In this document: piece by piece, positions 24,142 to 62,498 of the stretch | How the letters are laid out: each line of letters starts with the position of its first letter | Position numbering within the stretch: the stretch's first letter is position 1 | DNA from: Capsaspora owczarzaki ATCC 30864 | Taxonomy: Eukaryota > Opisthokonta > Filasterea | DNA: 64,000 bases | Assembly: GCF_000151315.2 (NCBI RefSeq) | Contig: NW_011887308.1 | Coordinates: forward strand, 249,649-313,648 | Direction: 5' to 3' | The notes under the pieces: model-generated | Database searches by the model: none | What the model was told of the DNA's origin: nothing | The model's input: the letters and a program-made list of their open reading frames with translations, nothing else | Position numbers and translations under genes: made by a program

Positions 24142-27100
24142 ATGGCTCAGTCGTCTGGGCCGCGGGCGTCGTCGTCGTCGGCTTCAGACCCAACCTCAGC
24201 GACGGCGATGATGATGATGACTGGCACGCACTCTATTCCGGGCGCAGGTGCTGGATCTGGGTCTGCAAGGGCGCCGCATGGGTACAGCAGCAGCAGCAGC
24301 AGCAACGCCTTCTCACTCGCCGATGCTGGCAAGCGTGGCACTGCCGCCTCGACCCATGCAGACGATGCAGACGCAGGCGACATCATGGATGCAGCGCTTG
24401 CCTCTGCGCTTGGCGTGTCCGTGTACGACCAGACTGCGCTCGAGCGCGGCGTGCAGATGCAGCTCGACTCTGCGTTGGCGCAGATGCAGATGGACAAGCA
24501 AGCGCACGCAACCAGCAAGTCAACCAGCAGCAGCAAGTCAAGCAATTCCAAGAGCAAGTCCAAGTCGATCGTGTCAAAACGAGCGCATTCGAGCAAGATG
24601 GACGACGACGACGATGGCAATGTCGACGTGATGGTCGTCGTCGATGATGGTGACGAAGAAGCGGACGTCGTCGCTCAACCATCGTCGGCGTCGGCCGCAT
24701 CCGAAGGTGCTGCGTCACGATTCGCAGCTGTGATTGCAGGACAGAAATCATTCCAGCCATCGCAGCTGCCATCTGACGGTCGCCGGCTTGGCATGGCGTT
24801 GGAATCGTCGTCCTCAAGCACGAGCTCGTCAAGAGCTGCGGCTCCTCCTGCTGCTGTTGGACAGCTCCCGCGGAATGCAACGGGTGTGCAGTCCAGCGAG
24901 CTGCAGCGCCGCCAGCAAACGCTCAGCACCATTAAAGACCGAGACTTTGGAGAGCGAGCCGGGCTTGTCTTGCCGCAATCCAGGGCTGCGGCCGCCTCAA
25001 TCGCTTCTTCAGAACAACCCGTTTCCAAACGCCCTCGGCTTGAACCAGAGGCTGCTGGTGCGATTGATAACACCGACCCCACTCTCGGTGACTCCTCCTC
25101 AGGTTTGTCAACGCCCTTGCCAATACCCGCCCCAGCTCACCGCGCACCATCGCCGACCGCCGCAGAGTGGGCTGCGTGGTCGTCTTTTGCCGCGCCCCCT
25201 CCGACGCGACGTGCGGCTGCAGCTGCATCTGCTCGAATGCAAAAGTCTTCCTCTGCGGCAGAGCAACCACCAACTCGACATTACCGCTTGCACGACGACA
25301 GCAACGATTCTCCTTCTCTTCCCAATCCGAAGCGCAATCGCCAATCGCGTTCGGCTGCTGTCAAGAGCGAGTCGGATGACAGCGACGTCGAGTGGATTGA
25401 ACCCACGAACGAGAAATCCAACTCGTCCTTTGCCGCGGACGACAGTTCTGACGAAGACGACGTCTCGAACTTGGAGGCAAACTCGTCGTCCATGTCGCTG
25501 GAATCAGAGGTCAACGATCTGCGCAGCGTTGCTTCGCCAAAGCGAGGGAGAGGTCGCCCTCGAAAGCAGCGAGTCGCGTCCGACTCTGACGACGACGAGG
25601 AAGAAGCAGAAGGGCGTCTGCGAACGTCGGAAGGCACTCGACTCAACCGCGAGCAACAGCACGACGATGGCGACGAGGCCTTTTATCAGGCAAGATTGCG
25701 ACGCTGGCGTCAAGCACGCCACAATGCTCGTCGCCAAACACTGCGCGCTCTCAACCAAACGATGCAACAACATCGCCGGCACGCAGCAGCAGCTCAGCAT
25801 GACCCAGTTACTGGCCAAACCATCCCTCCGCCAGCAAACGATCCCGAATTCGACACCCCACTGGACGACGACAGTGACCTGGACGACAATGACGATGCTG
25901 ATTCGGAGGGCGAGGACTTTCGGCAGGGCGGCGAGGAGGACTTTGTCCTGGACGAAGACTTTCGTGTTCCTGGCGAAATCTGGTCCAAGTTGTACCGCTA
26001 CCAACGTACCGCGGTCGCGTGGCTGTGGGAGCTGCACTGCCAAAACGTCGGAGGCATTGTTGGCGACGAGATGGGACTGGGAAAGACGATCGAAGTGATT
26101 GCCTTCCTTGCCGGCTTGCGGTACAGCAACCTGGGTGTGTACACGCCGCGTGCATCGCCGTATGACGCGCTCCAGCCGGGGGCTCGCCGTCGTGCTCAGG
26201 TGGCGCGCTCTTCTAGGCAAGTCCAACCCCTGCGCGCCGCCCTCATCATCTGCCCCGCCACCTTGATGCAGCAGTGGGTGCAGGAAATTCATCGCTGGTG
26301 GCCGCCGTTCCGTGTGGCCATCTTGCACGAGTCCGGTGCGTCCAACAGCTCCAAGCAGGATCTCGTTCGGCGCGTGCTGACCAAAGGCCACATTCTTGTC
26401 ACAACCTACGGCAGCATCCGCGTCAACCAAGCACTGTTGCTTGCGCAGCCGTGGGACTATGTCGTTCTGGACGAAGGCCACAAAATCCGCAATCCTGACG
26501 CGGAGATTACCATGGTTTGCAAGCAGTTTTCCACGCCACACCGCATCATCATGTCTGGCTCGCCCATCCAGAACAACCTGAAGGAGCTGTGGTCTCTGTT
26601 TGACTTTGTCTTCCCCGGCCGGTTGGGCACGCTCCCCATCTTTCTTGCGCAGTTTGCCATTCCGATCGACCAAGGAGGGTATGCCAACGCCACTTCTGTG
26701 CAAGTCCAAACGGCGTACAAGTGCGCTTGCGTGCTCCGAGATGCCATTGGGCCGTACCTGTTGAGACGGCTCAAGAGCGAGGTCAAAATTGATTTGCCCG
26801 ACAAGAGCGAGCAAGTCTTGTTCTGCAAGCTGACGCCTTTTCAGCAGCGCATCTACCGCAAATTCCTCGATTCGGCCGAAGTGGAGGCCATTCTCGAGGG
26901 GTCGCGCAACGTGCTGTACGGTGTTGATATTCTGCGCAAGATTTGCAACCATCCACACCTCGTCACGCGGCGCAAGCGCGCATTGGACGGCACTAACAGC
27001 AAGTCGTCGATGGACTCGTCGCCTGGAGGCAAGAGTGCCAAGAATGGCCGCAACAACAGGCAGGCTGCCGACGCGCCATCCGGTGGCTACGAGAGCGACA

Positions 27101-28872
27101 ACGACTATGGTGTCGACCTGCACGAAGAAGGCGAGGAGGACGAGGAACAACGAGGCACGCTGAGATTTGCGCCCTCCCAGCGCTCTTCTCATGCGCCCAC
27201 GACCCACTGGGAGCTGGACACGAGCAGCCCGGACTACGGGCGGAAGGACTTGAGTGGCAAGCTCGTGGTGATTGACTCGCTGCTTCGGATGTGGCACGCG
27301 CAGGGCCATCGTGTGTTGCTCTTTGCCCAAACGCGGCAGACGCTGGATATTATCGAACGGTGGGTGCGGTCGACTGCCTACCGCTACCGGCGCATGGACG
27401 GAACAACCCCGATTCGCTCTCGGCAGCAGATGGTGGATGAGTTTAACACGAACGAGTCGCTCTTTCTGTTTCTGCTGACGACTAAAGTCGGAGGTCTGGG
27501 CGTCAATTTGACTGGCGCCGATCGCGTCGTCATCTTCGATCCCGACTGGAATCCGTCAACAGACACACAGGCTCGAGAACGCGCTTGGCGCATTGGTCAG
27601 AAGCGCCAAGTGACCGTGTATCGGCTACTGACGGCTGGCACCATTGAGGAGAAAATTTACCATCGGCAGATTTTCAAGCAATTCCTGACCAATCGTGTGC
27701 TGAGCGATCCGCGGCAACGTCGATTTTTCAAGTCTCGGGATCTCTACGACCTGTTCACCATGGGGTTTGACAACCACGATGACGAGACCGAAACGGGAGC
27801 GCTTTTCAGCGGGACTGGCTCGGAGGTTCGCGTCGTGGATCGCGGCGGTGGTTTGGATGCCCAAGACGAGGCCGAACTGGCTGCTGTGGATTTCAGCACC
27901 GCACGTCACAGCAATGCAGCTGCAGCAGCAGCAGCAGCTGCGGGAGTGAAGACGTCGTCCGTGCAGGCGGATCGCTCTTCTGCCTCGGCGGCCGCATCTG
28001 GTGCTGAATTGGAAGGGCACGTCATTGCCAACCTTGCCCGCGCCAGCGAGTTTCAGCCCAATTCTGTGGATGATTTTGGCGTCGGTGGCAGCAATGGCAA
28101 CACACGCAGCAGCAGCAGCAGCAGTGCTGGTCCTTCTGGAGAATCTGCCGCTGCTGCTTCTCCCGCTCGCCGCAGCGGTGGTGGCGGTGGTGGCGGGGAT
28201 GACGCCGTTCTCGCCGCTCTGCTCAAAAAGCATGTGCACAGCGCCTTGCACCACGAGAACATTATGGAAGCTGGCCACGCCGATCACAAGCTTGTCGAGG
28301 CGGAGGCCAGTCGCGTTGCAAAACAGGCGATTGAGGCACTGCAAAAGTCCCGCACTGCACTCCGCAACAATGCCATCAACATGCCCACCTGGACCGGCCG
28401 ATCTGGCTTTCAAGCGTCCGCCGCGTCGTCTTCGTCTTTGTCCTCTTCTTCTTCTTCCGCTGCCCCCGCCCCAAGGTTTGGAACCAAAAAGTCCATGTCA
28501 ACCATCATGGCCACTACCCAGGTCGTGAGTGCGCCGAGCAGCGGCACAAGCTCGCCCGTCGAGGACGAGACTACTTTGCCGACAAGTTTGTCGCGGGGCG
28601 CCGTGTCGTTTGCTGCGCGATCCGCGTCTGATCTCTCCTCCGCCACTATGCTCAACAAATCCGCTCAGGAGACGCGCATCCGCATGGCCGATGACTTGTT
28701 GGAATACTTTTACAGCCACGAGCGGTGCGTCACGAGCTCGGCCATCGTAGCCGTGTTTGGACCCAAGATCCCGCAAAAGGACTCGGCTTTGTTCAAGGCC
28801 ATTCTCAAGGAGCTTGCAGTCCTGAAGAAGCGAGGTGCCACTACCGTTTGGGAGCTTCGACCGGCGTTCTGA
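24142..28872 (+). CDS. ERCC6: CSB/ERCC6/Rad26-like SNF2 family ATPase
   Basis: One exon, 1576 residues, the largest protein here. The first 600 residues are Ser- and acid-rich with a basic GRGRPRK AT-hook-like motif. The ATPase core holds [13 protein letters not shown], Walker A DEMGLGKT (about residue 641), DEGHKIRNP (about 776), [22 protein letters not shown] and the CSB-specific [16 protein letters not shown]. Helicase C motifs include [10 protein letters not shown] and [11 protein letters not shown]. The end has a winged-helix/ubiquitin-binding-like segment with [16 protein letters not shown] and WELRPAF, as in CSB. CSB remodels chromatin and recruits repair factors at stalled RNA polymerase II in transcription-coupled repair. 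An intronless gene of this size is unusual here. Confidence 0.93.
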
Positions 28873-29063: not shown

Positions 29064-30131
29064 TCATGCTGGCTGCGGTAAGGGCAAAGACACTCCAGTT
29101 GCCGTTGCTGAGCTGTCATCAGTCGGCCCAAGTGGTGCCAGAGGCCTGGCCTGAGTGTTCTTGGAAGCAAAGAAAGTGTACGAGAGGGTGATGGTGTCGA
29201 TGCCAAGCATGGCGGGATCCTTGTCAAACTCGGGGTCAATGAAGAAGAACACGGGCATGTCCACCTGCTCGTGCGGGCCGAGGCGTTGCTCTTCAAAGCA
29301 GAAGCACTGGATCTTGTTAAAGTACACGCCTGCCTCGTAGGGCAGGACGTTGTAGGTCGAAATGCCCACAATCGGCTTGTCGGTCGGATTGGTCGCGCTG
29401 TAGAATGCGAGCGCGGGTTCGCCTGGAATGACCTGGATCTCTCGCTGCACTGGATGGAACTTCCACTGCATGGATGCAGCTGTGTCTGCGTTAAACTGGA
29501 TCTTGATGATGCGCTCCTTGACGGGGGTGAAGCGTTCTGCGCGCGCAACGGCAGACTCGCCATCGTCATCCTCGCCTCCGCCGTGGGTATCCGTGCGCAC
29601 ATAGCCGCCATATCCCGTCGCCATGCAGAACATCCGGTAGAGCGGCACTGCGGCGTACGCCAAACCGGCCGTCAGCAGCCCGACCGCAGCGACATACATG
29701 CCCATGCTCTTGTTCCGCCGGCGGTTTTCCTCGTGAGCTGCATTGCCTGTGTGTCTTCGCTGGCCTTGCTTGGACTGCGACGATGAGGAGGAGGAGGAGG
29801 AGGACGATGAGGAGGATGAAGACGATGAGGACGAGCTTCCGCCTGCTTGATCGCCGCCTTGAGGCTGAGTGGAATAAGCTCGCGTGCGCAGAGCAGCTCG
29901 ACCTGGAGCGGACACGAGTAAGCTTGCAGAGTAGCCAAGCATGGTGGCAGCAGTGGAGACGCATCGGCGGTGCTCCAGGCAGCGTGCGGTCATCCTCGTG
30001 CTTGCGGCGACTGGCGTTTGCACAAGGATGGCGCCGTGATTCAATGCAGATCGTGCTGTTAGGTGTGTACTGGTTAGCATGGAAGCGAGCGGTCGGCCAA
30101 GCGGGCTCGCCTGCCGCACCAGCATTGCCAT
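29064..30131 (-). CDS. COX11: Cytochrome c oxidase assembly protein COX11
   Basis: One exon, 355 residues from the ATG at 30131. A long Arg/Ser/Ala-rich presequence (mitochondrial targeting) leads to a poly-Ser tract, then EENRRRNKSMGMYVAAVGLL beginning the membrane helix, AAVPLYRMFC, and the intermembrane-space beta-fold. The copper-binding motif CFCFEEQ is intact, as are QVDMPVFFFIDP and DTITLSYTFF. COX11 delivers copper to the CuB site of COX1. A CCCAG acceptor-like sequence just before the start leaves room for an upstream leader exon. Its promoter lies only 170 bases from the TTC19-like stop, and both genes serve respiratory-chain assembly. Confidence 0.95.
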   Translation of the reverse strand: MAMLVRQASPLGRPLASMLTSTHLTARSALNHGAILVQTPVAASTRMTARCLEHRRCVSTAATMLGYSASLLVSAPGRAALRTRAYSTQPQGGDQAGGSSSSSSSSSSSSSSSSSSSSQSKQGQRRHTGNAAHEENRRRNKSMGMYVAAVGLLTAGLAYAAVPLYRMFCMATGYGGYVRTDTHGGGEDDDGESAVARAERFTPVKERIIKIQFNADTAASMQWKFHPVQREIQVIPGEPALAFYSATNPTDKPIVGISTYNVLPYEAGVYFNKIQCFCFEEQRLGPHEQVDMPVFFFIDPEFDKDPAMLGIDTITLSYTFFASKNTQARPLAPLGPTDDSSATATGVSLPLPQPA

Positions 30132-30301
30132 TGTTTGCTGGGGAAACAAGAGTTAAGACTGAACCGAGTCTGAGCAAAGATGAGAATAGACATGTACTTT
30201 GGTTTTATGGTGATGAATACTAAATGCTGTGAAATGGCGTTGGTATGCAAGGAGGTACTGGATTGGATCCACCGCAATTCAAACCACCGTCAAAACCATC
30301 A

Positions 30302-37100: not shown

Positions 37101-40090
37101 ATGAGTGCGGGCGTCGGACCAAGCGGTGTCGGTCCAGGCGGCCTCTCCACGACCATTGCCCATTCCAACTCGATTCTTGATGCTGCGGCCGTTGTGCTGC
37201 TCTTCGCCAAGGTCACGTATGCCTCGGCCGTATTTATGTTCTCAGACTATGTGCACGTCGTTCCGCCGGCCGTCCTGATTCTTCTCGTGAGCGCGATCGC
37301 CTCCGTTGTCTTTTTCGTCCTCCAGCGACCGTTCTCGTCCAACAAAAAGTCACTAACATGGCGACAGGTAACCAAATTCATGATTGATCTCCTTCTTTGG
37401 TGTCTGGGAGTGGTGACACAATCATGTGGGTGTGGAAGTTGGAGAGCGATTGATTGTTTTTTTGCTGATTTTTTTGTTCGTTTGGGTTTTTCTCAATTTC
37501 GGCTTTGTTCTCAGTTGGTGCGAGTCGCCATTTACTCAGTTGCCGGAATCGCTTCATTGGGCTTCTGGGCGCATGCCATCAAATACTGCGGACCTCTTCG
37601 GTAAAAGCATTGAATCTATCATAGTTGTTGACAGCCTTTTTGGTTTCTCATTGTCGTTTTGCTTTCTCTCTCAGAGCAATTTTGCTTTCCAACTTGGGCG
37701 ATGCTTTGATTGGAGGAATCGGCTCGTCGTTGTTCAAACGCGGAAGCAAGGGAGGCTCAACCACTTCGTCTGGAACTTGGCTGATTGCTGTCGGTATCAT
37801 TGTTTTGCTCCTGTTCGATTCTGGCTCAAGCGGCTTGGTAAGCATATCTGACATAGCCGTGCGCTGGCTGGGTTGTCAAAAAGCAAGTCCCCTAATACTC
37901 ACGCTCTTTTCCGCAATCAACAAAACTTTTGTTGCTCAAAATAGCGAACTCTCGAAGTGGCAAGCCACCACGACGGAGAGGCTGGCGCCGAGGAGCATCA
38001 CACTCCCGAAGATGGCGCACATATCAAGCACCATCTGCAGTTTCCTTCGTCTCTGTCCGGCATCTCGGACAACACGGTCGGCATCTTCCTGCTTTTGATC
38101 GCAGCCGTGCTGAGCGCCTTCCGCAAAAACGCTGGACGAAAGCTCTCTGTTGAGGTCGGAGGTGCAAAGCGGCTGCAGGCCATTTCCTCGTTGTTCATCA
38201 CCGGTCTCAGTCTGCCGTGGGCACTGTGGTCTCTTGGAGACGTTCCTGAGGTTGGTGCTGAACTTTTTTTTCAATGCCAAACTCCAACGTATTTTTCCAC
38301 TCACTCGACGCTCTATCTTTGCATGACACCCTTGGGAATAGGACTTTGCCATCCTGTCGGTCGGCACCCTGCTGCCATGCGCCTACATGGCCGGCATTAT
38401 TCTCGTGGCTGATTTTTACGCCGAGTCCTACGCGTTCTCGCGCATGGACAGTCTGATTGCCGCCAAGCGAGGGTATCTCGCTGCCTTCCTCGGCGCTCTG
38501 TTTTACGGATTTGTTTGGCCCACCCACGCGGCTCCTACCATGGCCGTGCTTGCCGCCTTTGCCATTATTTCTCTTGGTACGACGCTTTGCCGTCTCTTTG
38601 TGTTTTTCGTCATTCTTGTTTGGTTTTTTTTATCGTCCCGCTCATTCCAATTCTTGTCATTTTAGGATTGCAAGTACTCTCGAATTCAGACACCAAGGAT
38701 GCCCGCGATGGACAATTGCTCGGGTTTAGCTCGGGCTTGCCCATGTACAGCTCGTTTGGCGCCCAGAACGACACCTCCGGCATTCAACATTTGACGCTCC
38801 GTCAGGTGCTGCGCCAAGTGCTCGAGAGCAAGGACTCTCGCCAGCTCTTCTACTTTTTGTGCTTGAATCTCATCTTCATGTCGGTCGAGTTCCTGTACGG
38901 CTACTGGACGAACAGTCTTGGTCTCATGACGGACGGCTTCCACATGCTTTTCGATTGTATCGCTTTGGCTGTGGGTCTTTATGCTGCTGTCATCTCCAAG
39001 TGGAAGGGCACGCGGACCTTTTCATATGGGTATGCATTTTTTGGGAGTTTTCCAAATTTGTTTGTTTGTGTGTGTTTTTTGGTTGTTTTTGTCTTTAACC
39101 GCATCACTCACTTTTCCCTGCTTGTCTCTCAGGTTTGGTCGCGTGGAAATCCTCTCGGGCTTTGTCAACGGCGTCTTTCTCGTGTTCATCTCCATCTTTG
39201 TCTTCTCTGAGGCGGTCGAGCGCGTGTTGACGCCGCCTGAAGTCACGACCGACCGCTTGTTGCTGGTGTCTGTTTTTGGTCTCTGCGTCAATCTGGTCGG
39301 CATGTTTGCCTTCTCGCACGCACATTCTCACGGCGGCGCTCCGTGCGATCACGGGCACGCCCACGGAGGCAACGACCATGGACACGCGCACGGCGGCGGC
39401 GAGCCGGAAGAGCCGAAGGGCAACGCCAACATGGAGGGAGTGTTTCTGCACGTTCTCGCCGACACCCTGGGCAGTGTGGGTGTCATCATTTCATCGCTTC
39501 TCATCCAGTTCTTTGGCTGGCACATGGCCGATCCTGTGTGCTCGCTATTCATCAGCGTCTTGATCTTCCTCTCTGTCATTCCCCTGCTCAAGAACTCCTC
39601 GCGCCACCTTTTGCAGCAAACGCCGCCCGATATGGAGCACGCGTTGCAGAGCGCCTTGCAGCGTGTATTGCAGCTCGACGGCGTTCTTGGCATCCGCGAT
39701 CCCCACTTTTGGAACCACGCGCCCAGTGTCATGGTTGGCACTGTGCACGTACACATTGCCGCGCAAGCAAGCGAGGGCCGCGTCATGGCCGGGGTTGCGC
39801 AGCTGCTCCGCGGCGCAGGCATTACCGAACTCTGCGTCCAGATTGAAAAGGACTACTTTTACACCTTTGCGGGTGTCCGACCTGTGTGGTATGCCACCAG
39901 TGGTCAAAAGCCACAGCTCGTGTTGCAGCAACAGCAGTACCAGCCCGCATTGACAAGCGCGAGCGGGCAGCAAACCCCAAACTCAATGTCACATCCCGCC
40001 TCGCCGTCCGTCAAAAAGTCGCAATCCCAGCAATGGGCCTCCGCCCTCCCCTCCAGCGGCGGTGGTTCGCACATTATTAATTTGAGTTGA
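37101..40090 (+). CDS. SLC30A5: ZnT5-like cation diffusion facilitator zinc transporter
   Basis: Model: join(37101..37367,37515..37600,37675..37837,37945..38250,38342..38576,38666..39029,39133..40090), 792 residues. The N-terminal half has many hydrophobic helices, the extra membrane block found in ZnT5/Msc2. The C-terminal half is a CDF: LCLNLIFMSVEFLYGYW with NSLGLMTDGFHMLFDC (HxxxD site on TM2), a His-rich loop (HAHSHGG, DHGHAHGG, DHGHAHGG) and LHVLADTLGSVGVIIS with the second HxxxD site. A cytoplasmic domain follows. ZnT5 with ZnT6 loads zinc into early secretory enzymes such as alkaline phosphatase. Length matches human ZnT5 (765). Confidence 0.92.
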
Positions 40091-45277: not shown

Positions 45278-45456
45278 TCACTTGGTCAAATGCTGCTGGA
45301 TCCAGGCCAGCGAATGCACGAAAAAGTCGCATTCGGCTTCAACATCGGCAATGCCGTGGCCATTCTCGGGATAGCTCAGAAGCCTGCACACACAAAAACA
45401 AACGCAAGTCAATATCAAACAAACCGATCGCTCCTAAAACCACCACCACCACCACC

Positions 45457-45503
<47 letters not shown>

Positions 45504-48009
45504 GACCAACGCACTTGCTGGGTACACCGCGGGCCTTCAGCGCAAAGTACAGCCCGGTGCCTTGGGATGGTGGGACGCGACGATCGGACGCGCCAAGCAC
45601 GACGAGCGTCGGGGCCTTGATGGCATCGACGTGATAGATGGGAGACGCCTTGAGCATGAGCTCGGCAGACTGGGCGCTGAGCTCGAAGAGACTCTTGGGG
45701 TCGGCACCGGCAAACTTGACTGCCGCTTCAACGACCATGTCGTCGTCTTGGTGCGCCGGGTTGTACACACGCGCAACGCCGCTCTCGGAGAAGCACCAAT
45801 CGGCAATGTCCGTGTTGGCGACCATCAGCGGGAGACTGACGACAGGATTGCGGATGGCACAGACCTTGTAGACGTCCGGGAACTGGCCGGTCATGTGGAT
45901 GGAGAGGAAGCCGCCGTGCGAGCCGCCAAAAGCAATGACCTTAGACGCGTCGCCAAAGCCGCGGGCGAGAGCCGTGCGGGTGGCAAGGTGCACATCGTCA
46001 ACATCCATGCGCCCGATCGCACCGAGCAGCGTGTTGATGCTGCTCTGGCCGTAGCCGACAGAGCCGCGGTAGTTGACGAGGACAAGATTGTAACCTAGCT
46101 CGGTAAATGCCGTGAACGATGGAGTGCACTCGAGCGGGAAGACGCTGTGAGGGCCGCCGTGAGGGTACGAGACCAGCGGCCGCTTGGCCAGGGCCTCAGC
46201 CGACTCGTTGGCGGCCGAGACAATCACAGCCTCCCACGGAACGCTGGTCGCATTGTCCACAAAGCGGAGCATGTGCACTTGGACGGGAACACGCGCGGGC
46301 TTGTCGGCAGTGATGCACGTCCACTTGGACGAGAAGGATGCGCCGACTTGCGCGGGATCGATGCGCGTGAGCCAGAGCGCCGGGGCGAGCGAAGGCGTGC
46401 TGAACGCGGCGAGAATCAAGTTGTGGGTGGCGTCAACAGCAAGGACTTGCCAGCTGCCTTCCGTCAGCGGCTCTTCGGCAGCTTGGCCGCGGTAGAGGCC
46501 ACGAGCGGCAACAGTCAGCGGAATAACGGCGCCGGACTGCGTGTCAATGGCCACAATGTGGCGCGTCGAGCCGATGGCCGTGTCCGTCACAATGTAACGA
46601 CCGCCTGCGAGCAGACCGCGCTCAGGCAGCTGGTTGACCCAAATGCCGGTAAAGCCGAGCGCCTCCCACGAGCCACGAGCGGGATCGTCCAGCAAGCTTT
46701 GGCCCGAGCTGGCATCCAGAGCCGGGACTTGCTTGTCCTTCCACTGGGCGACCCCGGCCGGGATGTGAACAGCATCAACAAGCAGCGAGTTAGCGGGCTG
46801 CCAGGCATTCCATGCGTCCGCAGACTCGAACGCTGGGATTTTGACCGAGCGCATGCGCGAGCACGCATTGTGCGCCGAGCCAATGTCATTCTCCAGGTAG
46901 ACAACGCTGCTGGTCGAGGGCACAAAGCGAGGCGAGCGCGCATTAAAGCCTCGGTTGTGAAGCAGCTTGACCGAGCCAACATCCAAGGCAGCTCCAGCGC
47001 CAGTCACAATCGGCACGGCCGCCAGAATGGCATCGCGGTTGTTGCAAAAGCGCAGACCCAGGCGGCGGCCATTGTAGCCAGCCTCCGAGTACGCGACAAA
47101 GACAAGAATGCCGTGGAATTTGCGCCCGTCGCCGAGGTCGGTCACGGATCCGGCGTGCTGCACCAGCAGCGCGTCTGCAGGCGTGTACAGCGGACCGTAG
47201 CCCGGAATGGGTCGCATGCAGCCATCGAGCACAGTGATGGACGGCACGCCCGACTCAGCCGCCAGCGGGAACTCGACAATGCACGGCACAGGACGACCTT
47301 TTCCGCTGTAGCCTTCGCCCCAATCTTCGACGAGCTCGTACTTGTTCAGCGACGACGCAGCGGTTGCAGTAGCAGTCGCTGCGGATGCAGAGCCAGACTT
47401 GGCCGTCGTGGTCGTCGGTGCGGAGGATTCCCACAGCGAAACGAGTTTCTGAGACGCTTCGGCGAGATACAGAATGGACGACTCGTCGTTGGACCACGAA
47501 ATGGCGCCAATGCCGTCGTCTGGCCGGAAGACTGCCTCGTGCTTGCCATCGGACGAGACCGTGTACACCATGCGATCGGCCTCCCAGAGCTCGAGGAACT
47601 GGACTGCCTTGGCGGCGGCACCGGCAGAGGCAGGGCCGAGCGACTTTGGCGCAGCCTTGCGCACGACAAGCATCCTGCGCCCGCTCGGCGACACTGAGAT
47701 CAGGGACATGTCGCTGACATCCACGGGGAAGGGCGCCGACCAGACGGCAGCAGCAGGTTGAGCAGGTTGAGCAGGTTGAGCAGGTTGAGCGAGGCCGGAC
47801 GGGACGCAGAAGGAGCGGAGGAACTGGCGCTGCTGCTTGCGCTCGAGGTCGCGCTGCTTGGCGACAGTCGTGACGGTGATGGCCGGTGCATCGGATCCTG
47901 AAGTCGAGGACGAGGTCGAGGAAGTGGAGAGGAAGCCCTGCGGATACGTGACCGAGGACGAGGCGATTCGAGCAAAGACGCTCCGAACCTGCTCAGAAGT
48001 GCACGTCAT
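45278..48009 (-). CDS. APEH: Acylaminoacyl-peptidase (S9C prolyl oligopeptidase family)
   Basis: Model: join(45278..45383,45515..48009), 866 residues. The N-terminal half is a beta-propeller with little motif conservation. The C-terminal alpha/beta-hydrolase has VSYPHGGPHSVFPLE, the nucleophile motif FGGSHGGF, aspartate in VVLGASDRRVPP and the histidine NGHG in the last exon, so the Ser-Asp-His triad is complete. APEH removes N-acylated residues from short peptides and oxidised proteins in the cytosol. Human APEH has 732 residues; the excess comes from a Gln-Pro-Ala repeat (AQPAQP) and Ser/Ala-rich insertions in the propeller. The only intron carries adjoining GTG and GTT trinucleotide repeats. 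Confidence 0.93.
45437..45503. repeat. Adjoining (CAC/CCA)n and (CAA)n tracts
   Basis: About 11 CAC units pass directly into about 11 CAA units inside the intron 45384-45514 of the acylaminoacyl-peptidase gene. Confidence 0.9.
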
Positions 48010-52800: not shown

Positions 52801-55800
52801 TTAAACATCCAGAGCAACGTAGACCGTTTCGGCAGCCTCCTCCCGTTTGACCATAGAGTACACCTCCTCTGCCGGGGGACTGGCGGCAGAGCTTCCCTTG
52901 ATGGTTGCATACTCGGACGTTTCGTTCACGTCAATTCCGAGGGCGCGAGGAGCAACGCCGTGTTCGATCGTGTGCGCGGAGAGCGGAACGTGAGGGGACT
53001 GCACTGGCTTTGGCACGCGTTTCGCAGCAGGCGTCGGTTCTGGGGCAGCAACCACGGGTTTGGGAGGCGCAACAGGCTTGGGTGCCTTGGAAACGGCAGG
53101 CTTTGGCGCCGTGGAAACGGCAGGCTTGGGAAGCGGGGCAGGAGGGGCCGCGGGGCTGCTGCCGGTGGTGTCGGCGGCGCCGCGCACGCTACCATCTGCG
53201 CTGACAGGCCCGTATGCGTGGGAAGCGAGTTGGGCAGGGCGAACACCGCGCATGGATGACGCAGACTTGCCGGCTGGTTGGTCGTTTGCTGTCAATGGCG
53301 CAAACGAGCTGTTCGAGTGCATCATGTAGTCTGCGGCAGGGCACTCTGGAGCACTGGCTTCGTACAATGGGTTGGTTACGTTGCCTGTGTCAAGGTCACA
53401 AATGAATGCAGTGAGAAACTGTGGCACGGACACCTCAAAAAGATGCAAACTGCTTTCTTCTTACCTGGCTCGGGCTGTTTGGATTGCCGACGTTTGCGAC
53501 GCAGCAAAACCAGCACTAGAATAATAATAACAAGCACACCGCAAGCAACTCCAACGGCTATTCCAACAGCGGGCGACGAGTCGCTGGAAGCGGCTGCAGT
53601 ACAAGTGTTGGTGGCAGAATTTGGAACCTCGCCCTTCGGGCAAGCAGCCACGCACTGACGCGATGCCTTCGAAGCGAAAGTGCCGCTTGGGCAACGAGTC
53701 ACGCATGACTGAGTTGAATTGTCGGCATAGCCTACAGGGCAAGGGGAGACGCAAGACCAGGTGGCATTGTACGCAAACTCGACAGAGCAGGTCGAGGCGC
53801 AACTGTGTGTCGATGAATCGGCCCAAGAGTTGGCTGGGCACGACACGACGCATGATCCGCTTGAAGAATCTGCAAAGAGACCCCCCGCACATTCCGCCAC
53901 ACACGTCCAATTTGAATTCTGCCTGAAAAGTCCAGAGGAGCAGCTGGAAGCACAAGTGCCAGCAGATGAATCGGCCCAAGAGTTGGTTGGGCAATTTTCA
54001 ACACACTGTCGAGTGCTGTCATCTTTGAAGCGTCCACCAGTGCAGCTCGTCGAGCATCTTCCAGTCAAAGAGTCCGCCCACGAGTTGGCGGGGCAGTTTG
54101 TCACACAACTGTGGGATGCATCATCTTTAAAGGTGCCACTAGTGCAGCTCGCAGAGCACGATGGCGGAGTCCGCAGACCGTCACCGTAGGTCCCACCAGG
54201 ACAAGTCTGGACACAAACCTTGCTTGTTGGCTCGGCATAGTACCCGCCTGTGCAAGTTGATACGCAAACACGAGGCAAACTCAAGGGGTTTCCGTATGTT
54301 CCATCGGGGCAGGGCGAGACGCAGCTGCGAGAAGCATCACCAAAATAGTTGGGAGCAGGACAGCTTTCAACACAAAGGTGGTTGACCGAATCGGCATAGT
54401 ACCCGCCTGTGCAAGCTGACACGCAAACACGAGGCAAACTCAAGGGGTTTCCGTACGTTCCATCGGGGCAGGGTGTGACACAGCTGCGAGAAGCATCACC
54501 AAAATAGTTGGGAGCAGGACAACTTTCAACACAAAGGTGGTTGATCGAATCGCCATAATACGGGCTTGGGCATTGGTCAACGCAAACTCTTGCGCTCGGC
54601 GATGCATTCGCTGGCGCAAAATTAGTGCAAGTTGAAACACACGCACGATTTTGGTGCGTGTCTCCATAGGTGTTCGCAGGACAGGAATCGCCACAGGTGC
54701 CGTCAGGCTTGCCCCAGTTTGGTTCAGGGCAGGTCGAGACGCACGATGTTCCAGACAAGTAGGATCCGGAGGCACACGATTGGCATGCATTCACATTGGA
54801 TGGACTACAAGTAGCGCACTCCAAGGAGCATGCAACCGAGAATGCGCGCGAGGAGCTCGATGATGTCAGGCCCGCTCCGTTGACAGCGCGAACTTGGAAA
54901 GAATAGGTTCCCACATCCAAGGTCGAGACTTGATTGGAAATGCAAGTCGTCCATGCGCCACTCGACGAAAACTGGCACTCGTAGTGGTCAATGTCGGACT
55001 GAGCGTCGGTCGCCGTAGTGAAAGTCCATGAGACCGAGTTCGTCCGAAAAACCTGATTTTGGGTCGGTGAAGTGATGGAGGGCGTGGAAGGTGCGCTGAC
55101 GTCCACGCAGATGGCGTGCAGGAAGAACTGGTCGTTGTTGCAACTGTCGTCGTAGGTGTCGCAAGCGACATGATTAAGAATGTCGCTGTTATACGTAGCA
55201 GCCTGATTGTTTAACATGAGGCAGTTGGACGGATTTTGGTCGTAATAAAAACCCGATTCATGCATTGCCACGCCAAACTTGATTTTGTAATTGGAAGTGT
55301 CCGGGCAAGCAACGCTATCAGCGCCTGATGTTCCTGTCTTCGACACGAAATCTCCTGAGCTCAAGGTTACTGCTGCGGATGGCATGCAGAGGAGGTAGAT
55401 GAACGAATACTCATCGCCCCCACTTCCGCCACAATGCCTTGTTGAGCAGCTAGAAGTTGAACAAGATTGCTGGCCCAGATCGCAGACCTTGTTGTTGTAG
55501 AGACAGTTGGTGTCACGCAGTCCGTCGCTCATGTAGAATGAAAACCCATACGCAATGACGGTGCCGGTAGGACAGGCGGCGGGTTGCGCCCCAGCACCAT
55601 AAGCTGTCCGCTGCGTCAACCCGGTGATGGCAGCGCCCGCGCGACAAACAATGATGATGTACTGTTTGGTAGTACTCTGTGAGCATTCCGAACTCGAGCA
55701 ACTGGTGGCGCCAACTGAAATGCCATAATAATAAGCAACGTGCAGCAATAAGTGCGCAAAAAATTAGTCACTCACTATTGCACGGCCCGTTATTGTCTGC

Positions 55801-56682
55801 GAAGCATGATGGTAAATCGTCTTGATCAGTCGACCACCTAGTTTCCAAAAAGGAATGAGCCCTCTATGTTGCCTCGAACAAACAAGCGACTCGAGACTCG
55901 ACTTACGACCATTTGAAGCCCCAAATGATGCTTTTGCCAGCCGGACATGTTGCGATGGCGAGGTTGTTCGCCAATCCAGTTCCTCCAGCTCTCACGATTT
56001 CATCCGCCGCGGTTGGTAAAAATGAAGCACCTGCATTGTTGACAATCCATCGTAAGTTATTGAGCGATGAGCTGAGCAAATCATACGCTCCACGACTGAT
56101 CCCCTTCATTCACTCTCGTCCTTCGCGTCCCCTCATTGAACTCATCTCCATCATTAAATTAAATACATTTCCATCTCCCAACACTCTGCACTCAACTCTC
56201 AATCCCACGACTCGGATTCAAACAAAATGGAAATCCATCACAAAACAGAAAAAGAAAGGAAAAAAAAAAAAGGAGGATTGACCAAATGAAGCCGTGGGAT
56301 GCTGAGCAGTTGCCTGGCTGCCGCACCCCCATGCCCGCGCAGGACGACGACCAAGCTGAGCGTGCCCAATGCAGCTCTGCAACACATGCAACAGGACAAC
56401 GCCGGGTGCAAGGGGATGCACAGAGCGCGATGGGAGCAAAGGTGATTCGCAATAACAGGACAATAAACACAAAAAAAAAAAAAAAACCAAGGAGGGTTTG
56501 CTCAATCAAAAAAACAACCATGAAAACGCACCACGATACGCAGCGTCGACGGACGGCACTGCGGCAGCGAGGGCGAGCAGCAGCAGGGAGAAGACGATCA
56601 GCGCCGTCGGATGGCGCAGCGCGGGGGGCGGCAGTGGCATCGCACGCCGCGAGACAGACCCAGCAACGAGGCCCGCACGCAT
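52801..56682 (-). CDS. Type I receptor A: Cys-rich ectodomain, tail with tyrosine motifs
   Basis: Model: join(52801..53384,53465..55714,55776..55837,55907..56030,56532..56682), 1056 residues, all in frame. Exon 1 ends in a signal peptide (ALIVFSLLLLALAAAV). Next come GASFLPTAADE, SWSTDQDDLPSCFADNN and two CP-x-G/AYGF-type modules, then an Ig/FN3-like unit (HYECQFSSSGAWTTC and FQVRAVNGAG), then about 13 small Cys-rich repeats of furin/GFR type (CPANSWADSS). A membrane helix is at about 826-850, then RRKRRQ. The tail begins with NPLY (867-870) and ends with SEYATI (Y1021), VYSMV (Y1038) and ETVYVALDV (Y1051): ITIM/ITAM-like sites for SH2 or PTB domains. It is paralogous to receptor B. Ligand unknown. 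Confidence 0.85.
54241..54558. repeat. Near-identical 159-bp tandem duplication in receptor A
   Basis: Two adjacent 159-base units (54241-54399 and 54400-54558) differ at only a handful of bases. Each encodes a 53-residue piece with PNYFGDASRSCV and CPDGTYGNPLSLPRVCVS. This is a recent in-frame duplication inside the Cys-rich ectodomain. Confidence 0.85.
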
Positions 56683-57351
56683 CAATTGAAAAAAAAAAAA
56701 AAAAGCTGAGTAAAGTCAAAAAAGCAGAAAAAAAAAGTAGAAAAAGAAAAGAAAAAAAAAAGACAAGGAAAATTTAAAAAACTGAGCTTTCCTTGAATGA
56801 ATTTAGGAAATGCAGATTCTCAGAAAGCGGGATTAAAGGACACAACTCCATGCAATTTGGTATCATAGCGACCAGAAGCAGGGTCGGTGCGGGGGAAGAG
56901 CTGAGTCACACGGAAAGAAACAAAACCAAGCAATTGTGTTTTCCAGTGGTTTTTCGGTTTTCCCCCTTCACGCCCGCTTTCCTCCCGGCTTGTCGCTAGG
57001 GAGAGAGCCCAGAGAGCATCCACTGCAAAGTTCATTTGAGACATCGATAGACAATGATTGGGCGTGGAAGGAGCGAACGGGGGTGGAGGAGGAGGGCGGC
57101 GTTCGCTCAGCATGGGTCGGGAACACAATTGAGAGATCGCGGGTTCTCTCTCTTTCCTAACGACATGACTATTCATGAGTCAGTCCTGTTGCTATCGTTG
57201 GCATGATGGGAAGACAAAAAACGAGAACGAACAACGTATTGAACAGAGAAGAGAAAACATCCAACAGCAAACAAGCTAACAGCATGAGAACATCCAATGA
57301 AGCACAGCTAACAACAACCAATCTCACAACACAACCAAAGAAGCAAGCAGT
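56683..57351. other. Intergenic between receptors A and B
   Basis: Promoter side of receptor A, starting with A-rich runs (56689-56760). No gene seen. Confidence 0.6.
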
Positions 57352-59933
57352 CTAAATGTCGATATCGGCATAAACAGTCTCCTTTCTGGCACCAGCAGCA
57401 GCATTTCGGCGCGCAACGGTCGAATAAATGCCGTCTGATACTGCCAACACGGGTCCGTCACGCTGAATCGAAGCGTACTCGGAACAAACCTCCATCTGAT
57501 GCCGCGTCGCCACTTGAGGAATATTCAGCTCGGCTGGAGGCAACCGCGGGCGAGTGGCTGCCGGAACAGGGGCTGCTGGCGATGTCTCGGAATCATGAGC
57601 GGCGGATTCATAGTCAGGCGCTGGAGCCGCAGGGCCGGATTCAAAAACTGGATTGAAAATGGTGTTTGCTGATGCGAGCAAATCCAAAAACATCCAACCA
57701 AAAGTCAGCCGAGAACAAGCACAGTAAATAAAACGACAGCCGACAAAGCCTCTGCGATACCTTTTGACTGCGAAGACACGGGTGTACGAGCACGACGACG
57801 ACGTGTCAGTAGAACTGCAAGTACCAGAATTAGGACAAGCAGGACAGCCCCACCAGCCGCACCACCAGCGATGGCAGCAGTGTTGGCTGAGCTGCTCGGA
57901 GAAGACGTGGAGGATGACAACACACAAGAGCGTGATGCTTGCTTTGGCTGGTAATTTTCAGGACAGGACGCGACGCACTGGCCCAGGATCATGTAGAATC
58001 CCGCGGCGCAAAAGGTACACTGATCCACGTTGGTCGCGACACAAGTTTCGCAGCTGGCGTTGCATGCAATGGTAAAGTCGTAGCCTGCGCTGGACTGAAT
58101 CAAACCTGCCCCGTTCACAGCGCGCACCCGGAGGGAATAGGCGCCCAGCTCCAGGGTAAACACTTGATTCTTCGCGCAGGTCGACCAGCTGCCGCTTGGT
58201 GAGAATTGGCACTCGTAATGGTCAATCTCAGACTCGGCATCTGTAGAATTGACAAAAGTGACAGTCACATCTTGACTTTGGACGGAAGTCGAGACAGACC
58301 CAGGCGCAGTCGGGGGAGTCACATCGACGCAAATGCCTTGAAGGAAAAACAAGTCGTTTGTGCAATCGTTGTTTTGGTAGGTACTGCATGCGGCAGTTTG
58401 CAGCACGGACGAATTAAAGGTCGCCAGCTTGTTGTTGGAGTCAACACACTGGGGTAAACGACCTGGTAGGTTTTTGGCGCTGGTTTGCATCGCAACGCCA
58501 AACATCAGGCGGGTGTTGGTTGTAGCACATTGAAGCGATCTTGAGGCTTTGGCTGCAGCTGCTACGATGTCGGTTGAGCTTATGGTCACGTCAGTCGCAG
58601 GCTGGCAGATCAAGTAAATGAAAGAAGACTCGTTGCCTTGATCGCCAGACGAGCACGCCCTTGTGTTGCAGGCCGTTGTTGCACAAGATTTCGCGCCGGG
58701 AGTGCAAGCGTCGCTATTGCGGCGCATGCACGCCTGCCCATTGTGCGAATCGCTCGTAAAGAGCGAAAAGCCGTACGCAATAACCGTGTCGCTGGGGCAG
58801 CTCACGCTTTGTGCGCCCGGGCCAAATTGGGTGACCTGGCTTAGGCCAGCAACAGGAGCGTCTCGGCAGACAATCACAACGTACTGCTTCGTCGTGCCCG
58901 AGGAAGTAGCGCACGCTTGACTGGAGCAGTTCGGTGCACCGCCTGCGAAATGAGTAATCATGGCGGCAAAAAGTGAGCTCTAGCTGCAGTGAGCGCAATC
59001 CATCATCAACGACTCACTAGTGCATGCAGCATTGTTGCCTTGAAAGCAGTTTGGCAAGCTTGCTTGGTTTGTCGACCATCTGTGTGAAATCCATCGTCAG
59101 CATCAGCAATGGTTGTCAGGGGCTTGTACAACCATTTGATCCGACTTACGCCCATTTGAAGCCCCACGCCACGACTTTTCCTGTCGGACACGAAGCCGTA
59201 GCGCCTGTGCCTGTGCCCTTGGCAATAACGACCTCGTCCCCCGCGGTTGGTAGAAACGACGCTCCTGCAATACAGTAATAGCAGCCAACATTGAGTCAAA
59301 TCCGAAATTCGATTCTCTTCCTTTCCTTTTCTTCTTGTTGTGTACTTTTTCACCGTGTTGTTCTGATTCCGCAGCAACGCGTGTGTGTGCTCGCCTTTTG
59401 TGTAAATGTCACCAACACAATCGCCGCACATCCCATCTTGCATGTCTGCGCAACCCCCTCTTCTTTGACTTTCGTTTTGACTCTGTTTGTAAGCCATTGA
59501 AATCCATCCAAAACGAGACGAGAAAGCGGGTTTTCTTTGGTTCCAGTAAAAATTCTTTGTCGCATTTTCTCACGCCTGCGACAGTTATTACGCGGCTGCT
59601 CCTACAGCGCAAAGGCGGCACTTTTGCTCAACTGACAGTCCAGCACCAGTCTGATACTGACGAGCGTTCGCAGTGACCCATTGCGTTTGCGTTTCCAGCC
59701 CAGATTCGTCAAACGAAAAGTGCCTAAATTTGTTTCCCCAGTCTCCTTGCTCTCGCGCTCTCTCTCTCCGCTGTCAGACCCCATTGGAGTGCGCAGTGAT
59801 GATGAGGATGTGCAGCGTTGGGACACCAGTCCAGGGACGTACCGCGGAACTTGGCGTGGCTCGGACCAGCGAGACTGGCGACAACAAGCAGCAATGTAAA
59901 AAACGCAAGTGGAGATTTGCTTTGATGCTGCAT
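57352..59933 (-). CDS. Type I receptor B: paralogue of A with short stalk
   Basis: Model: join(57352..57668,57761..58942,59018..59079,59150..59264,59843..59933), 588 residues, in frame. Signal peptide LAFFTLLLVVASLAG, then GASFLPTAGDE, WSTNQASLPNCFQGNN, TTKQYVVIVCRDA, VIAYGFSLFTSD and an Ig/FN3-like unit with HYECQFSPSGSWSTC and VRAVNGAGL. Only one Cys-rich unit (CETCVATNVDQC) precedes the membrane helix at about 442-467. The tail holds NPVF (489-492), SEYASI (Y548), GIYSTV (Y565) and ETVYADIDI (Y583). The first four exons share the splice phases of receptor A (1,2,1,1), which supports tandem duplication followed by loss or gain of the Cys-rich stalk. Function is inferred: phosphotyrosine-dependent signalling. 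Confidence 0.85.
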
Positions 59934-60229
59934 TGGATCGCGTGGTAAAGGACTGCATCTAGAAATGTGTAATTGTGGTAGCACAAGTGCATGTAAAGTT
60001 ATAAAATACGAGTGCAAAGTACAAAGACTTGCCGCGTTTTGCTGAGCTGAACAAGACAAAAAGCCAAATCTCAAGTCATGCTCTGCACAAGACCAAAGTC
60101 GCTTGAGAGCGTCATGAAAGTAAACATGTATGTACATTGGGATGAAAACTATGTGGAAACGAACAACATGGACAAATAAGACCGAAGGCGGTACCGTGCC
60201 TTCAAAAAAACATTTCGTGTTTTGCTCTG

Positions 60230-62498
60230 CTAGGATAGCGAAGCGTAGACTACCGTGCCGGCTTCGTGCGGTGCAGCATACTGCGGATAGTCTACACGTG
60301 CTCCTATCAGGCTCGCGTATGTTGTCGCCGGTGGCCCCGAAGGTCGCTTCTGGAGCTCATCGTATTCACCGTCGCCCTGCGAGTGTAATTCCCTGGGAAC
60401 GGCATACACCGAAGAGTCTGAACTCGTTGAAAGCTGGCTCTTGTTGAGCGGCGAGACCGAGCTGAAGCTCGACGACGACGAGGGACGGCCCAGTTGAGAG
60501 GCAAACAGAGGATTGACGACAGAAGGAGCTGTGCCTGGAGCGCAGAACGGACAAGGGTTAGGCACGAGCTTTTGAAGCGCGAAAAACATCCAACAAACAC
60601 AAACAAGCACACAAACAGGGCGTACCACTGTTGGGATTATGGTGGTCCAATGGAGCACGCTTTGCTCGCCGGCGACGAATCACCACGAGGGCAATGACAA
60701 TCAAGGCGACAACTACAGCGGCAATGGCGCCGGCAATAGCTGCAATCGGCGACGAAGAGCTTTGAGAGCCCGTGATCGGGTTGTTGGAATGTGCAGTGGG
60801 AGTCAGGCTTCCTTTTGCCGTGGAAGTAGTAGAGCGTACAGGGGTTGTGCTGACCACGGGGGTTGTGCTGACCACGGGAGTTGTGCTGACCACGGGGGTT
60901 GTGCTGACCACGGGAGTTGTGCTGACCACGGGAGTTGTGCTAACCACAGGAGTCGTGCTGATTGCAGGAGTTGTGCTGACGACGGGAGTTGTGCTGACCA
61001 CGGGAGTTGTGCTGACCACGGGAGTTGTGCTGACCGCTGGCGTCGTGCTGACCACGGGAGTTGTGCTGACCACGGGAGTTGTGCTGATCACAGGAGTTGT
61101 GCTGACCGCAGGCGTCGTGCTGACGGGAGTCGTGCTTGGAATCATCACTGCATTGCATGTTCAAAGGTGATTGTGAGTCGCTACATCACGTGGTCCTTTG
61201 CAATCTCGCACCCAGCAACACTCACAACAAGACGGAATGGTCGACCAAGAAGCGGAGGAGGCCGACGCAGAGCACGAGAGCGATTTGCTTGGAGCGTCAT
61301 CCGAGAATCGGTACCCGGATTGGCATGAAACGGTGGCAGTGAGTTGGTTGGTGCTGAACGAGACGTCTGCATTCGGAATGTTCAACGTGGGGCACTGCAT
61401 TCAAACGAAGAGGCGTGAGAAAGCGGACAACAATCGATCGGTGCATCGTTGTGGAAGGCTCACCTGAAGGCAGGATGAAAGCGCGTCTCCAGACGACGTC
61501 AGCCATTTACCGTTCGACTGCGAGTCCGCCGAGCAGGTCACTGTCGAGGACTGGACATTTGTGTTGGCAATAACGTAGCCAGCATCGCAGGTTTGCGTCG
61601 CGACGCCGTTTATAGCCGCAGCGGTGCTTGGGCTAAACGTTGCGTGGGTAAGCGAGGGCGCCGAGCAATATGCTGAGAATGATCAGGAGAACCGCTGTGA
61701 GCCACGCCCAGGCATTTGCTATGAAAGGTCATACGAAAAGCAGCCTTCTTACAATTCCACGAGGAACAAGTCGGTTTGGTCCCCCATCCCGTCGTCGATT
61801 CGGTGCAACTCAAAGTCTGACTGTAGAAACCGACCGAAATGCGGTACCCGAGGTTGCATGCAACGGTCGATGAAAAGGCTGACATGGTGCTCGTGTAGGT
61901 AACGGCGGCGTTGGTAACATTATAGTACAAACAGTATCCGCCATTCACGCAGACCGAATTCCAGTAGCCGTTGTTTGATGCGTCCGCCCGACACTGCGTG
62001 GTGCAGCTCGTCTGGGAAGTATCTGAACTGCACCGAAAGCCTTCCGCACAGTTGAGGTTTGCGGTAGACCAGGCCGTTCGTCCACTCGGTGTGGAAGAGC
62101 CCAGAGTGCCGTACTGAATCGATGACGGACAGGATACGTTCTGTGCAAGAGAGAGAGCAGGGAGAAGCAAATATCAGTGTCACCGGCTACCACAAGCACG
62201 CTTCACTGCGAATCGATTGACAAACCGGAGTGCAGCTGATGCTTGCGCAGCTCGAGGTCGAGCCAGTCGTGCCAGAACAACAACCTGTGACGCATCTTCT
62301 GCAGTCATCGCTATCATAGCAGGTCATGGAGCCCACAGGACAAGACGACGGGCAAGACGAGGCCGTATTGGCAACATAATTGACGTAAAGGTAGTCGCCA
62401 TCGCTGTCGCGGATCAAGCAAAACGTGTCGCTCAACGCGGTCGGTGCTTGCAAAGCGACCAGTCCAAGCAGGGAAAAGAGCAGTACGATCGGCCGCAT
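60230..62498 (-). CDS. Type I receptor C: CCP/sushi ectodomain, mucin-like stalk, tyrosine-motif tail
   Basis: Model: join(60230..60534,60626..61147,61226..61394,61464..61672,61753..62140,62226..62498), 621 residues, in frame. Signal peptide IVLLFSLLGLVALQAP, a Cys-rich N-terminal segment (CPSSCPVGSMTC), then CCP/sushi-like modules (CPSSIQYGTLG ... CAEGFRC; CDAGYVIAN; CPTLNIPNADVSF ... VSCQSGYRF). A Thr/Pro-rich stalk of repeated VVSTTP follows, then a membrane helix at about 480-503 and RRRRAKR. The tail has NPLF (528-531), SVYAVP, GEYDEL, TTYASL (Y593), PQYAAP (Y606) and VVYASL (Y617). The ectodomain is unrelated to A and B, but the tail plan is the same. Two more in-frame ATGs upstream exist; 62498 is chosen because the signal peptide follows at once. 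Confidence 0.82.
60835..61135. repeat. 18-bp minisatellite coding the receptor C stalk
   Basis: About 16 units of an 18-base motif (GTGCTGACCACGGGAGTT and variants), each coding STTPVV or close variants on the minus strand. Thr/Ser/Pro density suggests an O-glycosylated, length-variable stalk. Confidence 0.92.

Follow-up and report, generated by a model that had tools for sequence, protein, structure and literature searches.

Kinase-less relatives of receptor tyrosine kinases with putative SH2-docking tails in Capsaspora owczarzaki: a candidate paired-receptor system

Three adjacent genes of the unicellular holozoan Capsaspora owczarzaki ATCC 30864, here named A, B and C, encode putative single-pass receptors that lack a kinase. 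They lie on the minus strand of the stretch of DNA analysed here (64,000 nucleotides, referred to as the window; C17:249649-313648 of a 27.46-Mb, 29-contig assembly). Judging from their ectodomains, A and B are relatives of receptor tyrosine kinases (RTKs) encoded elsewhere in the genome, and A is a mosaic. The tails of all three form a separate exon and carry a spaced pair of tyrosine motifs of the immunoreceptor tyrosine-based inhibitory motif (ITIM) or switch motif (ITSM) type. Our preferred reading, to which we give a probability of roughly 55%, is that of paired receptors, one arm carrying a kinase and the other an SH2-docking tail that would likely damp the first through SHP-2.

Gene structure and protein architecture

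The predicted genes and their main parts are as follows (window positions).

52801-56682, minus strand: gene A, 1056 amino acids, predicted splice sites; exons 56682-56532, 56030-55907, 55837-55776, 55714-53465 and 53384-52801
57352-59933, minus strand: gene B, 588 amino acids, exon layout as in A; exons 59933-59843, 59264-59150, 59079-59018, 58942-57761 and 57668-57352
60230-62498, minus strand: gene C, 621 amino acids, sushi-type ectodomain; exons 62498-62226, 62140-61753, 61672-61464, 61394-61226, 61147-60626 and 60534-60230
53502-53567, minus strand: membrane helix of A, followed by RRKRR
57807-57878, minus strand: membrane helix of B, followed by TRRRR
60678-60743, minus strand: membrane helix of C, followed by RRRRAKR
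61038-61085, minus strand: part of the STTPV mucin-like stalk of C
52801-53384, minus strand: tail exon of A
57352-57668, minus strand: tail exon of B
60230-60534, minus strand: tail exon of C

Each protein was characterized, from the N-terminus onwards, by a hydrophobic leader (putative signal peptide), a Cys-rich ectodomain, one membrane helix, a basic stop-transfer sequence and a tail of 206 (A), 120 (B) or 118 residues (C). An initial annotation, made from the sequence alone, had described three same-strand receptors running from 62498 down to 52801 with these parts, a membrane-near NPLY, NPVF or NPLF and C-terminal tyrosines, and all of these were present. The models have GT-AG introns and open frames, their splice sites being predictions. 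Intron phases were 1, 2, 1 and 1 in both A and B, which share one exon layout; the five introns of C are in phases 0, 1, 0, 1 and 1, and the first has the weakest donor, GTTTGT. In all three genes the last intron is in phase 1 and lies just behind the stop-transfer sequence, so that the tail is an exon of its own. This arrangement was found in 3/3 genes of the cluster versus 0/17 receptors from elsewhere in the genome (12 RTKs plus five without a kinase, namely D, KL_C1, C29a, C29b and C1_3476), in which helix and tail stand in one open frame. The view of the tail as the constant, modular element of the cluster is thus backed by gene structure as well as by motifs.

A regular expression for a basic run behind a hydrophobic stretch, applied to open segments of more than 120 amino acids on both strands of the window, matched only at the helices of A, B and C. 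The same scan revealed no further receptor of this kind in the rest of the window or in roughly 20 kb past gene C. A family search assigned none of the three proteins to a kinase family, and a tblastn search of the window gave no kinase match.

The ectodomains differ, as had been noted, and fall into two kinds, the division running between A and B, which form one family (47% identical), and C, with its sushi domains and STTPV stalk. In C, Pfam recognized two sushi stretches in a 134-amino-acid piece, the whole protein being without a Pfam family at E ≤ 1. The head of A (54828-55712) consists of three tandem Cys-bearing repeats. An AlphaFold2 model of this exon-4 head reached a mean predicted local distance difference test score of 31.1 alone and 33.7 together with B, which is too low for a fold search. 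Among PDB sequences, the head weakly resembled (E 0.0037) the C-terminal domain of a perforin-like protein 1, which may hint at its fold.

Kinship with receptor tyrosine kinases

Searched against the genome, a 331-amino-acid query from the A ectodomain matched A itself, loci on contigs C2 (92%) and C18 (88%), B (47%) and a further locus at C17:17771, designated D (40%). The C2 and C18 loci continue through a helix, an NPNF motif and a tyrosine-kinase domain and are therefore RTKs; with their joined kinase sequence as query, the nearest chains were MuSK, ROR2, DDR and TRK. Two more RTKs, on C10 and C11, have Cys repeats and kinase in common with them. D (C17:11000-20999, minus strand), which belongs to the A/B family, is a kinase-less receptor of great length; its partly masked tail bears about ten YxxL/V/M sites (VYDNL, VYEQL, MYANL). 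By sequence, then, RTKs are the relatives of A and B, which themselves lack a kinase.

In A, the likeness to the RTKs extends to the DNA level:

53638-56032, minus strand: ectodomain cassette of A matching the C2 and C18 RTK genes, comprising the three-repeat head, an FN3-like domain, Cys-rich CPxG repeats and introns 2 and 3

The similarity to the C2 RTK begins at exon 2 of A (56032) and ends at 53638, about 24 codons ahead of the helix. As it spans introns 2 and 3 (91% and 80% identical, respectively), the cassette was copied as DNA. Kinship changes along the gene. Nucleotide identity between A and the C2 RTK exceeds that between the C2 and C18 RTKs in the head (95.9% versus 89.1%) and in the FN3-like part (94.1% versus 91.5%), and falls below it in the Cys repeats (77.3% versus 94.8%) and the helix (46.9% versus 91.7%), where A is closer to B (60.3% over 63 nucleotides). 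Sites at which two genes agree against the third point the same way: for the combinations A+C2, A+C18 and C2+C18 the counts were 55, 11 and 14 over the head, as opposed to 19, 33 and 209 over the repeats. Unlike its head, the helix and tail of A are not RTK-like. From this flip in kinship, the simplest account seems to be that A arose as a tandem sister of B and had its ectodomain replaced by RTK sequence, through gene conversion or exon exchange. The nonsynonymous (dN) and synonymous (dS) divergence between the A and C2 RTK ectodomains (0.123 and 0.317, respectively) indicates purifying selection. Near-identity of ectodomains, as in paired receptors, was observed for A (95.9% of nucleotides), and not for B (47%) or C (32-35%).

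With the C ectodomain as query, five other loci were found at 32-35% identity, namely RTKs on C12, C5, C8 and C3 and a kinase-less receptor on C1 in which Pfam recognized six sushi stretches. At this identity, C was rejected as the twin of an RTK. A sushi query of the genome gave 46 matches; among these loci, C1:3507005, C29:2313, C29:7212 and C1:3476543 are kinase-less sushi receptors with tyrosine-rich tails, and those on C8, C12 and C3 are RTKs (sushi loci C8:1354737-1365751 and C8:1266743 lie outside the set read through).

Kinase-less receptors and RTKs with near-identical ectodomains recur among these sushi genes. The KL_C1 ectodomain is 86-88% identical to those of the C8 and C12 RTKs, and 97.0% identical to that of C29a (dS 0.085), the tails of these two being 33.7% identical with saturated dS. 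The tails of KL_C1 and C29b are 53.9% identical, with a dN/dS of 0.29 that indicates purifying selection. A tandem array on C1 combines two RTKs (3488528 and 3493567) with a kinase-less receptor (3498572), the ectodomain of which is 98.0% and 96.0% identical to those of the two RTKs; the similarity stops at the helix. By tblastn, neither the window nor any of seven stretches with kinase-less loci showed a kinase remnant, and 3/3 RTK controls were matched. Overall, kinase-less members were present for two of the four ectodomain types searched. The paired-receptor-like layout proposed in the initial annotation is therefore truer than could be told at that point, given that A and an RTK have a head in common and that such pairs recur in the genome; the RTK relatives of the cluster had been missed.

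The C29 contig (10,071 bases) and C1:3502400-3504700 have ends that are 99.7-100% identical around a masked stretch, and C29 may be the part missing from the middle of the C1 receptor array, or another haplotype of it. At C4:1968300-1972300, a Cys-rich CPxG-type ectodomain was followed by a membrane part that, by eye, resembles an adhesion G-protein-coupled receptor.

Tyrosine motifs of the tails and their putative readers

The motifs of the three tails, all on the minus strand, are as follows.

53362-53373, minus strand: A, NPLY
52900-52917, minus strand: A, SEYATI
52849-52866, minus strand: A, EVYSMV
52810-52827, minus strand: A, TVYVAL
57643-57654, minus strand: B, NPVF
57466-57483, minus strand: B, SEYASI
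57415-57432, minus strand: B, GIYSTV
57361-57378, minus strand: B, TVYADI
60503-60514, minus strand: C, NPLF
60353-60370, minus strand: C, GEYDEL
60308-60325, minus strand: C, TTYASL
60269-60286, minus strand: C, PQYAAP
60236-60253, minus strand: C, VVYASL

Each tail has an NPx[YF] motif (3 versus 0.08 expected in shuffled tails), separated from the helix by 16-24 residues, the strict form NPxY occurring only in A. A hydrophobic residue follows at Yxx[LIVMF] for 4/6 tyrosines in A (p 0.007), 3/4 in B (p 0.017) and 3/6 in C (p 0.056, marginal). The list of motifs first drawn up was accurate for A and B; for C it counted QYAAP, which has no hydrophobic residue at +3, and overlooked GEYDEL. Between A and B, the C-terminal part is 41% identical and the three C-terminal tyrosines align and are all kept.

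The ITIM consensus was found once per tail (3 versus 0.62 expected in shuffles, p 0.022), and each tail holds one ITIM/ITSM-type pair: SEYATI-TVYVAL in A (30 residues apart), SEYASI-TVYADI in B (35) and TTYASL-VVYASL in C (24). Such pairs, 20-40 residues apart, gave a shuffle p of 0.0002-0.0004 for each of A, B and C, with a residue class chosen post hoc, once the tails had been inspected. With the class defined as the printed ITIM and ITSM consensus joined, L being permitted at ITSM +3, pairs occurred in 0/219 background open segments from other DNA. The ITIM-like sites proposed at the outset are thus above chance. According to a passage of PMC8631942, the ITIM is S/I/V/LxYxxI/V/L and the ITSM TxYxxV/I, alanine is common at pY+1 and the ITIM of BTLA is IVYASL; a passage of PMC6930881 gives TEYATI as a motif of PD-1. 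TVYADI of B fits TxYxxV/I, whereas TVYVAL of A and TTYASL of C end in L and fit only the looser form in PMC6930881. By these sequence motifs, the tails of A, B and C closely match the published ITIM/ITSM class.

The immunoreceptor tyrosine-based activation motif (ITAM) reading, also put forward initially, failed: a motif scan for YxxL/I x6-8 YxxL/I found none in A, B or C, and it was rejected for them. This spacing appeared in the related tails on C1 and C29, in KL_C1 (1), C29a (2) and C29b (2), a total of five versus 0.03 expected over seven tails, with none in D. The carriers of these pairs, such as YDTL-x6-YATL, are the kinase-less sushi receptors at C1:3504500-3513499 and at two loci on C29, which makes this ITAM-like spacing in a unicellular holozoan.

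For tail statistics, we pooled seven kinase-less tails (A, B, C, D, KL_C1, C29a and C29b), D being scored only up to its mask; C1_3476, whose tail is 99.4% identical to that of C29b, C1:3498572, and C1:3502512, the last with a masked tail, were left out. A hydrophobic +3 residue was present at 31/63 tyrosines versus 10.1 expected (0/20000 shuffles) and an acidic residue at -1 to -4 at 37/63 versus 24.7 expected (p 0.00085). Among the related tails, Yxx[LIVMF] was significant in D and C29a, marginal in C29b (0.08) and not significant in KL_C1 (0.45). These tails, unlike those of A, B and C, were enriched in YxN (14 versus 2.9 expected) and YxxP (13 versus 6.0); in A, B and C there was no YxN, and YxxP stood at chance level (2 versus 1.9).

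Among potential readers, the locus C13:292400-295600 encodes two SH2 domains, with best match PTPN11 (E 8.4e-89; PTPN6 3.2e-64), and a tyrosine phosphatase domain (E 7e-59) with HCSAGIGRTG. On these matches, tandem SH2 together with phosphatase, it is an SHP-2 orthologue. In animals, SHP-2 reads ITIM/ITSM-type pairs. Frames downstream in the locus contain YGNI, YENL and YENI sites. The tandem-SH2 query from SHP-2 also matches human PLC-gamma and RasGAP. Two further loci with tandem SH2 domains resemble, by eye, PLC-gamma (C2:2309600-2312700) and RasGAP (C13:112700-116000). In total, at least 34 SH2 matches were counted exon-wise in the genome, and at least 176 PF07714 matches, Ser/Thr kinases included, with 134/545 kinase candidates scored. 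No tandem SH2 lay beside a tyrosine kinase among the exon-wise kinase and SH2 matches listed, so that there is no evident ITAM reader of the Syk type. The PTB profiles PF00640 and PF08416 had no match in the genome, and none in control genomes either. The kinase-linked system envisaged in the initial annotation therefore has candidate SH2 readers, including the SHP-2 orthologue.

Proposed mechanism, alternatives and significance

With an apparently RTK-derived ectodomain, A probably binds the same ligand as its RTK twin, which would cluster the two receptors. The kinase-less tail would then be phosphorylated by the RTK in trans or by a Src-type kinase, and its ITIM/ITSM-type pair would dock tandem-SH2 proteins, most likely the SHP-2 orthologue. 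Docked SHP-2 would tune, and most likely damp, the kinase arm; the membrane-near NPx[YF] may serve endocytosis. Damping rather than boosting is the weakest step of this mechanism. In its full form, as pre-animal inhibitory pairs in which an RTK is set against a kinase-less receptor with a gene-converted ectodomain that acts by SHP-2 through the ITIM/ITSM-type pair, the proposal is tentative, the odds being on the lower side.

Several observations weigh against the paired-receptor reading. The ITIM/ITSM-type pair is absent from the D, KL_C1, C29a and C29b tails, as it is from two RTK juxtamembrane pieces, and thus marks the window cluster. Across three diverged sushi tails, 8/13, 7/13 and 5/15 tyrosines were kept, above the average of other residues in the first comparison only; the conservation in paralogues that the initial annotation had looked for accordingly holds between A and B and does not extend to sushi tails in two of three comparisons. 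A genome search with the B tail found B alone, not even A, which makes it too insensitive for mapping the tail family. A rooted tree test of the A head with B and D preferred no topology, and with it no donor gene (approximately unbiased test, p 0.607, 0.426 and 0.397); the mosaic claim therefore rests on the identity shifts along the gene. C is only distantly related to the RTK families. Two other sampled RTK ectodomains had no kinase-less sibling in the genome (one matched itself alone, the other its own contig region and the C4 locus), so pairing is not universal. Finally, the tail motifs also fit YxxPhi sorting signals, from which motif grammar alone cannot separate them.

The alternative that survives best, with a lesser share of the probability, makes the kinase-less receptors boosting co-receptors, trans-phosphorylated by their RTK twin as an extra docking platform for SHP-2, PLC-gamma or RasGAP. 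ErbB3 is a known example of such a docking co-receptor. RTK kinship and tail data fit this equally, loci reading as PLC-gamma and RasGAP are present, and the YxN and YxxP sites of the related tails favour it; in A, B and C, however, these sites are lacking or at chance and the pairs match the ITIM/ITSM class. A purely endocytic or sorting function, with NPxY/F and YxxPhi as adaptor signals that need no phosphorylation, is rather unlikely. Every tail YxxPhi and the distance of NPx[YF] from the helix would suit it, whereas the acidic residues before the pooled tyrosines and the YxN/YxxP sites of the sister tails, which sorting does not need, speak against it, with less weight for A, B and C alone. 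Decoys or degenerate RTKs, that is, ectodomain copies with a lost kinase and an arbitrary tail, would explain the absent kinase and the great differences in tail between families; they are improbable given open frames, non-random tails, no kinase remnant, a tail exon common to A, B and C, and purifying selection on the KL_C1 and C29b tails. That the tail exons belong to other transcripts, an artefact that predicted splicing would allow, is hardly credible with GT-AG sites, a kept phase, an open frame and the same split in three genes. Skipping of exons in Capsaspora kinase genes is described in PMC3870316.

For the paired-receptor reading, the closest working parallel appears to be pairs of the CD300A/CD300C type, in which, according to a passage of PMC12447643, gene conversion keeps the ectodomains alike; we do not claim membership of that class. 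Near-identical ectodomains on different signalling tails, sequence exchange and one partner with ITIM-type sites are common to both. In vertebrates, however, the partner is an ITAM-adaptor receptor, whereas here it is an RTK with its own kinase, the ectodomains are non-Ig, the host is unicellular and opposing action of the two arms is a proposal. KIR, LILR and SIRP are further vertebrate paired receptors. As in PD-1 and BTLA, which recruit SHP-1 or SHP-2, two spaced motifs are present (EYATI of A resembles TEYATI of PD-1, and VYASL of C resembles IVYASL of BTLA) and an SHP-2 orthologue is encoded; such short motifs are likely to have converged, and no sequence kinship is claimed. The RTKs of the same genome share the ectodomain family (C2/C18) or the Cys repeats (C10/C11), NPNF near the helix and tyrosines between helix and kinase; A and B differ in having no kinase and a separate tail exon. 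The receptor RTKB2 of Monosiga likewise has a protist tail with tyrosines, in RM2 repeats, and a passage of PMC3584944 describes binding of its phosphorylated RM2 domain to a Src-type SH2 domain; RTKB2 differs in its own kinase and in its motifs.

Elsewhere in the window lie genes for an SNF2-type helicase (24142-28869), a Cox11 assembly protein (29067-30149), a cation efflux protein (38981-40087) and an acylamino-acid-releasing peptidase (45418-48009). A literature search turned up no account of such pairs; it did not extend to the main Capsaspora papers on kinome, genome and phosphoproteome, which may mention kinase-less receptors, and we claim no priority. Among the papers searched, none joined choanoflagellates with ITIM, ITAM and transmembrane, and Capsaspora with PTPN11 occurred only in a drug-repurposing study.

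To our knowledge, the pairing of inhibitory and activating receptors that exchange ectodomains counts as an invention of vertebrate immunity. With RTK/kinase-less pairs that have swapped heads, ITIM-type tail pairs and an SHP-2 orthologue in a unicellular holozoan, the origin of tyrosine-based inhibition becomes directly testable; transfection and genome editing have been published for Capsaspora (PMC6001378 and PMC9170242). If true, the proposal would assign a role to some of the expanded RTK set of these protists, and the paired-receptor principle of immunity, perhaps with ITAM-type spacing too, would predate animals or have arisen twice.

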